From: Planctomycetaceae bacterium | GTDB taxonomy: Bacteria; Planctomycetota; Planctomycetia; Planctomycetales; Planctomycetaceae | NCBI GenBank assembly: GCA_021732415.1 | Contig: JAKFVC010000014.1 | Location: 49,148-113,147 of the forward strand | Direction of reading: 5' to 3' | Length of the DNA stretch: 64,000 bases | In this document: positions 26,266 through 28,892 of the stretch, one piece after another | How the letters are laid out: every line of letters begins with the position of its first letter | Position numbering within the stretch: position 1 is the first letter of the stretch | Translations under genes and position numbers: made by a program | The notes under the pieces: model-generated | Told to the model about the DNA's origin: nothing | Seen by the model: only the letters and a program-made list of their open reading frames with translations | Database searches by the model: none

Positions 26266-26434
26266 GATCTAACTGCTTGTTGGGACTACACGTAACTATG
26301 ACGGTCCTAAGGTAGCGATGTCGGGCGACCGACTAGTGAAGCGGCGGAGTCTCTCGTAGATAAAGCTGCGTGTCCACTGTCGAACCTTCCCGGTTCGATA
26401 AGAACGGCTGTCTCAACAATCACTTCGTTGGATC
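26266..26434 (+). ncRNA. Y RNA-like unit 1, with 23S rRNA domain IV-like insert
   Basis: A 169-nt unit. Terminal stem: GATCTAAC (26266-26273) with GTTGGATC (26427-26434), 8 pairs including one G-U. Second stem: TGTTGGGA (26278-26285) with TCTCAACA (26411-26418). The loop between them carries the array motif: AACTGC on the 5' side and ATCACTTCGT on the 3' side. The insert at 26293-26318 matches the 23S rRNA helix 69-71 segment at all but one of 26 bases (core GACGGTCCTAAGGTAGCGA). Similarity continues through a hairpin GTCGG-GCGA-CCGAC to about 26345, where 23S has its own GTCGGG...CCGAC hairpin. A further hairpin CGAACC-TTCCC-GGTTCG follows. Not a 23S gene: the rest is absent. Confidence 0.75.
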
Positions 26435-26446
26435 ATTAGCAAATTT

Positions 26447-26560
26447 TGGTGACTGCTCCGCCGGGAGTCTATCTGGCCGCCCAGTGAGTCTGGTGATTGC
26501 CTGGCAATCAAGAGGTTCGATTCCTCTGCGGAACGTCTCTCGGGAAATTCCTCGTTGCCA
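26447..26560 (+). ncRNA. Y RNA-like unit 2, compact cloverleaf insert
   Basis: A 114-nt unit starting 12 bases after unit 1. Terminal stem TGGTGAC (26447-26453) with GTTGCCA (26554-26560), two wobbles; second stem CCGGGAG (26461-26467) with CTCTCGG (26537-26543). Shares GACTGC on the 5' side and TCCTCGTT on the 3' side with its sisters. The insert is a four-way junction in which every stem abuts the next: CCGC (26477-26480), CCAG/CTGG arm (26481-26493), TGATTG/CAATCA arm (26494-26510), T arm AGAGG-TTCGATT-CCTCT (26511-26527), GCGG (26528-26531). The T arm is canonical, but the closing stem is only 4 bp, so this is a tRNA mimic, not a tRNA. Confidence 0.75.
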
Positions 26561-26572
26561 TTTCAGGAAACT

Positions 26573-26713
26573 CGGATTGACTGCCGGTTTGGAGTACAGG
26601 TTTGGGACCTCGTGGTCGTGGGTTCAAATCCCACCAGCCACCCTTTTATTAGACGGTGGCTGTAGCTCAGTCTGGTTAGAGCGCGAATCTCTGGCTATCA
26701 CTTCGTCAATCCG
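26573..26713 (+). ncRNA. Y RNA-like unit 3, circularly permuted tRNA insert
   Basis: A 141-nt unit, 12 bases after unit 2. Terminal stem CGGATTGAC (26573-26581) with GTCAATCCG (26705-26713), 9 perfect pairs; second stem TTGGAG with CTCTGG. Motifs GACTGCCGG and ATCACTTCGT are conserved. Inside, tRNA parts appear in swapped order: T arm GTGGG-TTCAAAT-CCCAC (26618-26634), acceptor 3' strand CAGCCACC (26635-26642), a 12-nt linker, acceptor 5' strand GGTGGCTG (26655-26662, 8 perfect pairs), then TA and a D arm GCTC-AGTCTGGTTA-GAGC (26664-26681). There is no anticodon arm. This resembles the tRNA-like module of Salmonella YrlA. Confidence 0.82.
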
Positions 26714-26734
26714 ATTTTAATTAATTTGGAGACA

Positions 26735-26837
26735 CACTCGACTGTCGGTTTAGAGTACATGGATTAGCAGGTTCAATTCCTGCCCGGGTTGAGATGTTAA
26801 TCTCGGACCGGATCTCTGGACATCACTTCGTCGAGTG
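26735..26837 (+). ncRNA. Y RNA-like unit 4, T-arm plus hairpin insert
   Basis: A 103-nt unit. Terminal stem CACTCGAC (26735-26742) with GTCGAGTG (26830-26837), 8 perfect pairs, followed two bases later by a run of six T (26840-26845), a plausible transcript end. Second stem TTTAGAG with CTCTGGA. Conserved motifs GACTGTCGGTTTAGAGTACA and ATCACTTCGT are nearly those of unit 3. The insert has a canonical T arm (GCAGG-TTCAATT-CCTGC, 26767-26783) immediately followed by a hairpin CCGG-GTT-GAGAT...ATCTC-GGA-CCGG (26784-26811) in place of the acceptor. Confidence 0.78.
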
Positions 26838-26857
26838 CGTTTTTTACTATGATTGAT

Positions 26858-26929
26858 GTAGCAGAATCTCGTAAGAGTTCTGCCTTCTTCGAGAGACTTT
26901 GCGGCGGAACTCTTACGAGATTCCGCTAC
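26858..26929. repeat. 23-bp inverted repeat (GTAGCRGAATCTCGTAAGAG type)
   Basis: Arms at 26858-26880 and 26907-26929 are complementary except one base, with a 26-base loop. It separates units 1-4 from unit 5. Shorter relatives occur near 48114-48139 and 60018-60044, so it is a dispersed palindrome. Confidence 0.8.
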
Positions 26930-27091
26930 TTTGATACTGCGTTCGCTCTGCAGTCAAATGCGTCCGGCGCGAACTTGTGGAACAGCATCGTGTCCAATTC
27001 AAAAACAGAACTCATTTCTGCTGCGGTCACGCAGCCCATGAATGATCAACTTCGCAGGAAATAGTAGTTAACAACGGGCGCTGGACATTGT

Positions 27092-27173
27092 GATCCGACT
27101 GCCCGAGTGGACTACCTCAATCTTCCTCCTCGGCCGCAACCACGGCCTGTCTGCTCACCCCCCTCGTTGGATC
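27092..27173 (+). ncRNA. Y RNA-like unit 5, minimal form directly before the TROVE gene
   Basis: An 82-nt unit. Terminal stem GATCCGAC (27092-27099) with GTTGGATC (27166-27173), one G-U; second stem GAGTGGAC (27105-27112) with GTCTGCTC (27149-27156), two G-U pairs. The motifs GACTGCC and CCCTCGTT match the sister units, and GGACTACC matches the GGACTACA of unit 1. The insert is only a GGCCG-CAACCA-CGGCC hairpin. A run of six T (27179-27184) follows. It lies 81 bp before the TROVE start codon. Confidence 0.68.
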
Positions 27174-27184
27174 GGTGGTTTTTT

Positions 27185-27229
27185 GCGCGCTGGCGTCCAG
27201 CACGTTCCTGGGCGCCGCGCGTCTTTTTT
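27185..27229 (+). terminator. leader hairpin with T-run between Y RNA-like unit 5 and the TROVE gene
   Basis: GGCGTCC (27192-27198) pairs with GGGCGCC (27210-27216), extended by GC-rich flanks, and six T follow (27224-27229). It looks like an intrinsic terminator 10 bases before the AAAGGAGG ribosome site, so it may limit read-through from the RNA array into the coding gene. Confidence 0.55.
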
Positions 27230-27254
27230 CGTCCTCAGAAAGGAGGACTGCATC

Positions 27255-28892
27255 ATGGCTAATAAGACATTGTTTTCTCGATTGACGGCCTTGTTGCCCC
27301 GGGCGACGGCACAGAATCTGGCTGGAGGACCGGCGTATGCCTTGCCGCCGAAGCAGGCGCTCGCCCAGTTTGCGGCGACCGGGTGCTTCAACGGTACGTA
27401 CTACGCCGATGCCGAGGCGCAGCTCAGCACATTGATGTCGCTGATTCATCAGGTCAACGATAACGTCTTCCTGGCGAAGCTGGCGGTCTACAGCCGCGAG
27501 CGGGCCTATATGAAGGACATGCCGGCCGCGTTGGCGGCGACGCTTGCGGCGCGGGATACGGTCCTGTTTCATCAGGTGTTTGAGCGGGTCGTCGACAATG
27601 GCCGCGTTCTGCGGACGTTGTTTCAGATGGTCCGGTCGGGTCAGTTCGGCAAGAAGAGCTTGTCGAGTTCGTTGCAGCGGGCCTTCCAGCGGTGGCTGAA
27701 TGCGGCTTCGGTGGAAAAACTGCTGTCGGCGTCGATCGGTCACGATCCGAGTCTGCGGGACATCCTGCGGATGGCGCGGCCGACTCCGTCGGATAACAGC
27801 CGGCGCGCACTGTTCGGCTGGCTGACAGATAAGGAGCAGTCGAAGTGGGCGCCGGCGACGGCGGTCGATCTGCCGGAGCAGGTTCAGTTGTTAGTCGCAT
27901 TCCGTGCAGCAGAAACGTCGGATGAGCAGATTGTCCTGTTGGAGAAGCTGCATGCGCGATGGGATCTGTTGGCCGATACCGCAAAGGGGCCAAAGGTGTG
28001 GGCGGCGATGGCTCAGAAGATGGGGCCTCAGGCGCTGCGCATGAACCTCAACACTCTGCAGCGGCACGGCGTGTTTGAAGACAAGGCGATGGTCCAGGCG
28101 GTGGCTGACCGGTTGGCGGATGAGAACGAAATCCGTCGGTCGCGCCAGTTTCCGTACCAGTTCTTCGCCGCGTATTTGAACGCGTCGAATGAAGTGCCGC
28201 AGGCGATTAAGGCGGCTTTACACAAGGCGGCGGAGATCGCGTGTGGTAACGTGCCGGTCTTGCCGGGTCCGGTGGTGATTGGTCTCGACGTATCGGGTTC
28301 GATGCAATCGCCAATCACAGGGAACCGGGGTCACGGCAGCACGACGAAGATGCGATGCGTGGATGTCGCGGCCCTCGTGGCGGCGGCACTCCTGCGGCGT
28401 AATCCGGACAGCATCGTCGTGCCGTTCGATACGAAGGCGTTCGATGTGAAGATCGATCCGTCGGACTCAATTTTGAGCCTGGCGGACCGGCTGGCGAAGT
28501 ATGGTGGCGGTGGCACGGATTGCTCGTTGCCGATCTGCAAGGCGAACACGAACTACGCGCAGCGCAAGTTCGCGGGGGTCGTGCTGGTCAGCGATAACGA
28601 GAGTTGGGTCTACCAGAACCGACCGTACTTCTACGGCACGAACGGTGCGACGGGTGCAATGACGGAATGGCAGCAGTTTGTACAGAATCAGGTCAAGCTC
28701 CAGGGTGACGACATCACGGGGCCGAAGCTGATCTGCATCGATCTGCAGCCCAACGGGACGACTCAGGCTCCGGACCGGAGCGACATCCTGAATGTCGGCG
28801 GCTTCAGTGACGCCGTGTTCGAGGTGATTTCGGCGTTCCTGTCGGGCGACGCAGGTCGCTTCGTGGCTGAGGTAGAAGCGGTGACGCTGTAG
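27255..28892 (+). CDS. rsr: TROVE/vWA-domain RNA-binding protein, Ro60 (Rsr) ortholog
   Basis: A 545-aa protein, the usual Ro60 size. ATG 27255 follows AAAGGAGG; the longer in-frame start at 27090 would overlap unit 5 and add an unrelated N-terminus. Residues ~10-335 are the TROVE module of HEAT-like helices that form the RNA-binding ring. Residues ~340-545 are a von Willebrand A domain with an intact MIDAS site: GLDVSGSM with Asp345, Ser347 and Ser349, and GGTD with Thr421 and Asp422. Ro60 and bacterial Rsr bind Y RNAs on the ring surface and misfolded RNA ends in the central hole; Rsr works with PNPase in rRNA maturation and decay. Five Y RNA-like units lie upstream on the same strand. No rtcB, rtcA or rtcR gene is in the window. 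Confidence 0.93.

Follow-up and report, generated by a model that had tools for sequence, protein, structure and literature searches.

A gene for a Ro60/Rsr-type protein and, directly upstream of it on the same strand, an array of six Y RNA-like units were identified in a 64,000-nt stretch of the genome of a Planctomycetaceae bacterium (contig JAKFVC010000014.1 of assembly GCA_021732415.1, positions 49,148 to 113,147; hereafter the window). Comparisons with related loci show that the predicted RNAs share a covarying terminal stem, an internal loop and a second stem, as in YrlA-type Y RNAs, that the inserts of five of the six mimic translation RNAs, each in a different way, and that the mimic modules are under structural constraint and associated with Ro60 genes. 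We place at roughly 0.5 the probability of a tethering model, in which this Ro60 gene has its own six Y RNAs and a shared handle is combined with mimic modules that recruit different enzymes. The units and the gene are located as follows.

26153..26243, plus strand: Y RNA-like unit U0, handle and anticodon stem-loop mimic (detector, fold and class alignment)
26265..26435, plus strand: Y RNA-like unit U1, handle and mimic of 23S rRNA domain IV (detector and class covariation)
26445..26562, plus strand: Y RNA-like unit U2, handle and class-II-tRNA-like elbow without an anticodon arm (by eye)
26573..26713, plus strand: Y RNA-like unit U3, YrlA-like permuted tRNA (relaxed Rfam YrlA match)
26734..26838, plus strand: Y RNA-like unit U4, T-arm and acceptor-like stem without a D-arm (detector, fold and T-arm rule)
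27091..27174, plus strand: Y RNA-like unit U5, handle and short hairpin, no mimic recognised (detector and fold)
27255..28892, plus strand: Ro60/Rsr-type TROVE-vWA gene, 545 amino acids (Pfam domains, profile match and predicted structure)

The units and the Ro60 gene of the window

The units were sought with a detector of the handle, which requires a stem of up to 9 nt ending in AC and followed by TG, a 3' partner after YYC, and a second stem of at least 5 bp; it is tuned to the ACTG handle, and units with other handles would escape it. In its final form, the detector found six units on the plus strand (26153-27174) and none on the minus strand of the whole window. Applied to 40 first-order random sequences, each 64 kb long, it averaged 0.3 units per sequence and never gave more than one. 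Two extra matches given by an earlier, looser detector in 23001-28889 were rejected as false. The original prediction had described five units. All five were found again, their terminal stems measuring 7-9 bp and being followed by a short internal loop (ACTG and YYCGT sides) and a second stem, and the spacers given for them were correct to within a few bases, but a sixth unit at 26153-26243 had been overlooked.

The protein encoded at 27255-28892 exceeds the cut-offs of both the TROVE and the vWA_Ro60 models of Pfam and matches the profile of Deinococcus radiodurans Rsr (2NVO) from position 12 to position 531 of its 544 (E = 1.5e-34). The residues of the vWA DxSxS motif (D345, S347 and S349) are invariant across 16 homologues. 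The predicted structure has a mean predicted local distance difference test (pLDDT) score of 79.7, with values below 50 for residues 1-28; its best match in the PDB is 2NVO (template modelling scores of 0.69/0.76), followed by 2I91 and 1YVP (animal Ro60). The model thus has the ring-shaped helical-repeat fold predicted for an Rsr/Ro60 protein, and the full-length TROVE/vWA protein that had been placed directly downstream of the units is upheld. The start codon is read as the ATG at 27255; an alternative longer GTG frame from 27090 would overlap U5.

The following element lies between U5 and the Ro60 gene.

27191..27224, plus strand: GC-rich hairpins and a T run, terminator- or attenuator-like

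These hairpins might act as a leaky terminator, but terminator-like sites are not above chance here (two sites versus a mean of 1.4 in shuffled sequences), and a scan for sigma-70-type promoters found none, although the sigma-70 pattern says little for planctomycetes. The position of the units, directly upstream and on the same strand, and the terminator-like hairpin before the gene, its chance-level count notwithstanding, are what would be expected if the units served as a 5' mRNA leader through which Ro60, on binding them, repressed or stabilised its own message. We regard such leader control as highly improbable: it leaves the mimics unexplained, and units occur away from TROVE in one genome of the family (G032) and downstream of TROVE in Rhizobium and Methylosinus.

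A palindromic hairpin of about 70 nt at 26850-26935, between U4 and U5, is a repeat resembling repetitive extragenic palindromic sequences or miniature inverted-repeat transposable elements; it has 80 BLAST matches in its own genome, with many copies counted in both orientations. A similar palindrome was seen by eye at about 24640-24840.

Distribution of the arrays and the shared handle

Of 150 genomes sampled from the family of the window, 52 have a homologue of the TROVE protein. In what follows, L numbers denote fetched loci and G numbers the sampled family genomes. From the family, 30 loci with a TROVE protein at least 66% identical and 10 of the 14 with one 43-46% identical were fetched. 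In the former group, every locus with upstream DNA has units there (L064 lacks such DNA); in the 10 loci of the latter, no convincing unit was found, and the few scattered detector matches look false. A scan of named genomes with the 16-sequence TROVE alignment confirmed at least 568 relatives among at least 587 candidates. The best 80 loci were kept; they are mostly from Planctomycetota, with Planctomycetaceae, Pirellulaceae, Gemmataceae, Isosphaeraceae and Thermoguttaceae among the labels. In the 68 loci with at least 1 kb of upstream DNA, at least one unit was detected in 63, at least two in 52, at least four in 31 and at least six in 9, and the largest array by the detector contains eight units (L102). 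Within 2.5 kb of TROVE, 220 units were found in 168,180 nt upstream versus 2 in 166,341 nt downstream. Such arrays are therefore widespread among planctomycetes, and that of the window is a typical example. TROVE matches also occur in 87 phage records, all 87 below 60% identity, and Myxococcus phage Mx1 (L175) encodes a TROVE protein 40% identical to that of the window, near genes for peptidyl-tRNA hydrolase and tRNA-Gly.

Before the count, seven detector matches that looked false on inspection were dropped, and the rest may still include some; removal of false matches and duplicates left 284 units, or 285 once one merged match was split. The sequence ACTGCC begins 235 of the 285, ACTG itself being a requirement of the detector. 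The terminal stem of the handle (helix 1 in the alignment of the 23S class described below) is paired in 98.1%, and five of its seven pairs have changed on both sides. The predicted units have the features of Y RNAs, namely a closed terminal stem, a conserved internal loop and a position next to a Ro60 gene. The earlier proposal of a common Ro-binding handle with interchangeable mimic modules is supported by the covariation of the handle and by the recurrence of mimic classes, the binding to Ro being a prediction from sequence. Covariation in homologous loci, whose absence the original prediction had named as grounds for giving it up, is present in both the handle and the 23S class.

The original prediction did not name what the inserts imitate; the imitated elements are an anticodon stem-loop, pieces of class I and class II tRNAs, and domain IV of 23S rRNA. 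A pattern census of the 284 units gave a T-arm in 164, a 23S core in 26 and an anticodon-like loop in 29, and 66 have no T-arm, 23S, anticodon or D-arm pattern, two of these being degenerate 23S units (L102_2189 and L143_776). By a related rule, T-arms occur in 161 of 285 inserts, compared with a mean of 3.4 and a maximum of 7 in 50 rounds of shuffling. Among 81 short units, 28 have an anticodon-like hairpin, compared with a mean of 0.38 and a maximum of 3 in 300 rounds; both shuffles preserve single-base composition only.

A further class in relatives carries a hairpin with a [CU]GGGAG or related hexaloop (L040, L049, L063, L065, L089, L100, L124 and L135). Comparison of this class with 16S, 23S and 5S rRNA gave no match above shuffled sequences; E. 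coli (Escherichia coli) 16S rRNA stood in, the 16S rRNA of G097 not having been found, and the G097 5S entries (flanks, reverse complement) mean little. The inserts of L065 and L135 have their best score in E. coli 16S rRNA at 1188-1189, below the shuffle maximum and possibly by chance.

The 23S rRNA module

U1 contains the following parts of the 23S mimic.

26291..26318, plus strand: 28-nt 23S-identical core, running across H69 into H70 (E. coli 1909-1936)
26320..26333, plus strand: H71-like hairpin GUCGG-GCGA-CCGAC, with a GNRA-type tetraloop replacing the natural H71 loop

The core is identical at 28 of 28 positions to the 23S rRNA of a relative (G097, the sole full 23S sequence found in six genomes searched) and at 27 of 28 to that of E. 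coli; the helix names H68, H70 and H72 are those that we take to apply. Twenty-two of the 28 sequences of the class were aligned, the set having been reduced from 28 to 24 by similarity and L048 and L091 omitted for their long inserts. In this alignment, the core is succeeded by the H71-like hairpin with its GNRA-type loop and then by two more hairpins, one resembling H72 and a short one resembling H68; the 5' strand of H69 stands at the end, immediately before the closure of the handle. In most relatives, H69 would be formed from strands in permuted order, with the handle taking the place of the H69 loop. The AACTAT of that loop is kept in 6 of the 22 sequences (the window, L037, L040, L050, L124 and L125) and gone from 16. 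In U1 of the window, H69 could also fold locally into a small hairpin, and all four of the permuted pairs that have letters do pair.

The structure of the class is paired in 88.1% of 1016 alignment cells, versus 75.9 ± 0.7% in shuffled alignments and 31-47% when the structure is slid by 1-3 columns. Thirty of its 47 pairs have changed on both sides versus 18.0 in shuffles, the covariation score is 0.424 versus 0.193, and none of 500 shuffles was as high on any of five measures. The counts of changed pairs weigh most here, because kinship alone can beat shuffles, and any structure drawn up from the sequences themselves is likely to outscore its slid versions. By helix, both-side changes were found in 5/7 and 6/10 pairs of the handle stems, 3/6 of the permuted H69, 4/5 of the H71-like hairpin (helix 4, 96.4% of cells paired), 5/5 of the H68 stub and 1/5 of the H72-like hairpin; helix 5 is weak (69.6% paired). 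The class is therefore unlikely to represent a 23S fragment or pseudogene, that is, a colinear copy without new structural constraint, since its members are closed by the handle, permuted in most aligned relatives and marked by compensatory changes.

The sequences flanking the core were compared with 70-nt segments of real 23S rRNA, with the corresponding segment ranked against 293 distant ones. It ranked first, with none of the 293 others as high, for the 5' side in 7 of 23 units and for the 3' side in 9 of 22. L048, L054, L104 and L134 had first rank on both sides, and the ranks of other units were lower, down to 211. A broad local alignment to 23S rRNA with weak gap penalties was uninformative, since between 8 and 182 of 200 shuffles did equally well, and the parts after the core were mostly aligned elsewhere in 23S rRNA.

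A narrow pattern for the 23S mimic, which misses a variant of genus g38 (e.g. L050), occurs in 9 of the 150 family genomes, and all nine are among the 52 TROVE-positive ones (Fisher p = 4e-5); the match in G058 is located at the end of a contig. IMG/VR contains no sequence that fits the pattern exactly. On contig 7 of G032 (L164), three units (23S-type, YrlA-like and T-arm type) were seen by eye upstream of a gene for a TIR_2-domain protein.

The anticodon module

The mimic in U0 is a predicted anticodon stem-loop.

26183..26197, plus strand: anticodon stem-loop mimic CACC-CUGUUAA-GGUG, with the anticodon GUU at 26189-26191

Its 7-nt loop is that of the Asn tRNAs in the arrays of the same genome, and its stem differs. 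The fold of U0 has a free energy of -32.8 kcal/mol, and the minimum free energy structure of the single sequence does not show the 7-nt loop. The class comprises 19 units of 82-91 nt, each with an insert of two hairpins of which the first is an anticodon stem-loop. The MAFFT alignment misplaced L096 and L045, and the loops were therefore read directly. A 7-nt loop is present in 18 of the 19 units and fits the strict YUNNNRA pattern in 15 (all except L045, L085, L090 and L147). The anticodons of the 18 units are GUU (seven), CUU and GCG (two each), and GUC, GCU, AUU, GGU, UUG, GUG and UGU (one each). At the first stem position, the pair is C-G in 10 units, G-C in five, A-U in two and G-U in one, and at the second it is C-G in 11 and G-C in seven, so that both vary in a paired fashion.

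An array tRNA with the same anticodon as the mimic was found in 9 of 12 loci checked. The mimic loop is identical to at least one array tRNA loop in L088, L089, L105, L063 and two arrays of the window's own genome, and it is one base off in L080, L084 and L101. The stems differ, and the mimic is unlikely to be a copy of a local tRNA. A covariance model of the class matched 27 of the 150 family genomes, 25 of them TROVE-positive; because it was trained on TROVE-adjacent units, matches in TROVE genomes arise partly by construction, and the informative figure is two matches in 98 TROVE-negative genomes. In these two, the matches lie near a contig start (G064) or score 42 bits (G050).

It is hardly credible that the units are captured tRNA and rRNA debris without function. 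A tandem array in a genome rich in repeats might suggest this, but the compensatory stem changes in the 23S and anticodon classes speak strongly against it, and the classes recur over many planctomycete loci. We also consider it improbable that the modules serve as substrates or titrators, being modified by, or sequestering, enzymes that modify tRNA and rRNA. Position 36 is U and is followed by A37 in 13 of the 18 anticodon mimics, which we take to be the t6A type and which would agree with such a role. The 23S mimics argue against it: 16 of 22 are without the AACTAT of the H69 loop, which presumably carries pseudouridines, and the stretch around U1939, which we assume to be a modification site, is deleted in all 22. 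Excerpts of PMC8394870 report that YrlA is modified by DusA and TruB, a point in favour of modification.

The tRNA-like modules

Three further units carry tRNA-like modules with the following parts.

26481-26493, plus strand: D-like hairpin of U2, followed by a variable-arm-like hairpin
26511-26527, plus strand: T-arm of U2
26618-26634, plus strand: T-arm of U3, followed by an acceptor-like stem
26662-26682, plus strand: D-arm of U3
26767-26783, plus strand: T-arm of U4

The class of U2 is also found in L047/L092, L048/L101, L102, L115 and L096. It has the hairpin CCAGUGAGUCUGG, a variable-arm-like hairpin and a T-arm, without an anticodon arm; the class II reading was made by eye. The possibility that U2 mimics tRNA-Sec was dropped, as there was no match to the Sec model and the sole array tRNA assigned to SeC is predicted to be 73 nt long.

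U3 and the Rfam YrlA model (RF02553) can be aligned over their full length at 38.8 bits (E = 4.1e-6), and U3 is the only unit with the permuted layout of YrlA, in which a T-arm, an acceptor stem and a D-arm lie within the handle. The covariance-model check asked for by the original prediction thus gave one full-length match below the gathering score; the other five units of the window had no YrlA match up to E = 5. YrlA matches of 27.5-49.2 bits were found in the loci of 11 relatives. At gathering thresholds, an Rfam search of the window gave no match. The other relaxed Rfam matches in the array are to tRNA at 26662-26784 (E = 1.6) and, over a short T-arm stretch inside U3, to transfer-messenger RNA (tmRNA).

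tRNA arrays and rtc loci

The units of many relatives are preceded, on their own strand, by a large tRNA array with a near-complete set: 43 tRNAs with 41 anticodons in L088, 40 with 40 in L089, 37 with 37 in L157 and 35 with 34 in L080. At least 10 tRNAs are present in 17, and at least 20 in 10, of the 36 loci with a full 8 kb of upstream DNA. Across nine arrays, ARAGORN found encoded CCA ends in 5 of 276 tRNAs, and six of the nine terminate in Arg-Arg-Cys. The genome of strain K23_9 (L102) has at least 65 tRNA matches in all versus 32 predicted upstream of TROVE, and its array is therefore largely additional.

Elsewhere in the window's own genome, four stretches (L169, L170, L171 and L173) hold 40, 39, 15 and 12 tRNAs, respectively, with a shared order; one of the 40 in the first lies apart from the array, and an HNH gene lies between its His and Trp tRNAs. 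In these stretches, the detector gave only two unconvincing matches (L171 at 4437 and L173 at 7091). The contig of the first array stops 181 nt after the last tRNA, so that units farther on are possible. RtcB of this genome is encoded on another contig, and no rtcBA lies beside the array in the window.

In plasmids of Methylosinus and Rhizobium etli, a TROVE gene (product 43-46% identical) lies between rtcR and rtcB, the latter annotated in Methylosinus and identified by Pfam in R. etli. Downstream of TROVE, five units were seen by eye in R. etli (L177, 5610-6290) and four in Methylosinus (L176, 5570-6120), with the handle GGCGAATGC...CTCGTCGCC and YrlA scores of 27.5-98.4 bits at five places; no 23S core was found in the two loci. 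The original prediction knew of no description of a five-member array of this kind. Arrays with several members are in fact common, with at least four units in 31 of the 68 planctomycete loci and with the five and four units of R. etli and Methylosinus.

Proposed function

In the tethering model, Ro60 would bind every unit via the shared handle, and the protruding mimic would bind a protein that normally recognises the imitated element, such as a nuclease, a modification enzyme or a repair enzyme. That protein would be tethered to the Ro60 ring, one ring could be armed with different enzymes, and the armed ring may act on damaged or surplus tRNA and rRNA, as a modular extension of the Rsr-Y RNA-PNPase machine. 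YrlA, according to excerpts of PMC8394870, attaches by its stem to Rsr and tethers PNPase with its other domain. Use of the cassette when tRNA and rRNA are being damaged is suggested by the spare tRNA set that adjoins it in many relatives and by RtcR/RtcB in the two proteobacterial loci. Rsr is reportedly linked to 23S rRNA maturation, to go by the title of a cited reference. A 23S bait on Ro60 would be coherent because of this link and because H69 has been suggested as an entry point in 50S decay. The latter idea is offered as a suggestion, for the nuclease that starts the decay, in the available part of PMC4289901, where H69 deletion itself did not destabilise ribosomes and the nuclease is described as unidentified.

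Several observations weigh against this reading. The planctomycete units are predicted RNAs, known here from sequence, with Ro60 binding and partner enzymes conjectural, and the YrlA score of U3 (38.8) lies below the Rfam gathering score of 69. The permuted H69 has letters on both sides in only four of six pairs in U1 of the window, and its both-side changes come from 3 of 22 sequences (L062, L102 and L134). The flanks of U1 are weak, as 25 and 41 of the 293 other 23S segments score as high, so that support for its putative extended 23S mimicry comes from the core and the class alignment only. The 23S-type unit of G032 is on a different contig from TROVE. A tRNA array near TROVE is not universal (one tRNA at most in 13 of the 36 loci with a full 8 kb), and no tRNA was found in the 64-kb window, which accordingly holds no tRNA array unit.

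The main rival, which could coexist with tethering, is a decoy function: mimics bound by Ro60 would soak up nucleases (toxins, anticodon nucleases or defence effectors) directed at anticodon loops and elbows of tRNAs or at 23S rRNA, while the tRNA array replaces losses, as an anti-toxin or anti-defence cassette. It is rather unlikely in our view, although several lines of evidence agree with it. Near-complete spare tRNA sets lie beside the cassette, as in L088 and L089, and tRNA-like 7-mer loops are present in 18 of the 19 anticodon units, several being identical to an array tRNA loop. The 10 anticodons in 18 units across species would, on the other hand, be odd for a decoy of one nuclease, and the stretch after H70 is missing from all 22 aligned 23S mimics, as is the H69-loop AACTAT from 16. 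MazF-mt6 presumably acts in the stretch after H70, and a decoy for this toxin is unlikely, its presumed target region being missing from the 23S mimic. From the literature, excerpts of PMC12803027 term tRNA array units a putative antidefense system, and those of PMC7790460 raise the possibility that YrlA competitively inhibits an anticodon nuclease but report that it was not cut by the enzyme; no nuclease of bacterial H69 was known to the authors of PMC13189344, as far as its available part goes.

Recruitment by tethering and interception by decoys might be combined in an RNA-injury kit, which we advance tentatively and with some doubt. Here, a Ro60 ring with up to eight Y RNAs counterfeiting different vulnerable sites of translation would both recruit and intercept the enzymes by which the genuine RNAs are cut, repaired or recycled. 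The sites, to which the same tentative grade applies, would be the anticodon loop, the tRNA elbow, the acceptor and the 23S intersubunit-bridge helices H69-H71, accompanied in many species by a near-complete spare tRNA set.

Relation to known systems and implications

Ro60/Rsr, Y RNAs, the tRNA-mimicking YrlA and tRNA arrays are already known. The cassette resembles the YrlA/Rsr system of Salmonella (rsr-yrlBA-rtcBA) in its terminal stem, small internal loop, second stem, permuted tRNA-like module and adjoining Ro60 gene, but differs in having six units, 23S and anticodon modules, a sub-gathering YrlA score and no rtcBA next door. Most characterised bacteria carry one or two Y RNAs. With the Deinococcus RYPER, the machine of Rsr, Y RNA and PNPase, it shares an Rsr, that of D. 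radiodurans being the closest solved structure to the window protein; we know of no 23S mimic in a Deinococcus Y RNA. The rtcR-TROVE-rtcB loci of R. etli and Methylosinus are similar in their TROVE proteins (43-46% identical), multi-unit arrays and handle, whereas their units lie downstream of TROVE and have no 23S core. The tRNA array units with HNH endonuclease of Mycobacterium, phages and plasmids have a comparable redundant tRNA set ordered on one strand, and L169 likewise contains an HNH gene, but the planctomycete arrays then carry Y RNA units and TROVE.

To our knowledge, bacterial Y RNAs have so far been found to imitate tRNA alone. The available part of PMC8394870 speaks of tRNA mimicry alone, and in the tRNA-array literature, the accessible text of PMC12803027 and one other paper contains no mention of TROVE or Ro60, nor that of PMC12803027 any of 'Y RNA'. 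Y RNA mimics of 23S rRNA or anticodons, and a link between Y RNAs and tRNA arrays, are undescribed in the open-licence literature searched, which is not proof of absence. Y RNAs with ribosomal or anticodon mimics appear to be of kinds not described before, and the results point to a modular RNA-damage or quality-control system. The binding partners of Y RNA effector domains, and the reason for the ties of Ro60 to RNA repair and 23S rRNA metabolism, have long been open questions, for which the modules described here name concrete targets and offer natural domain swaps. A mimic of the 23S bridge region, together with anticodon stem-loops that vary between species, would show that the RNAs of Ro60 are a modular platform for mimicry.

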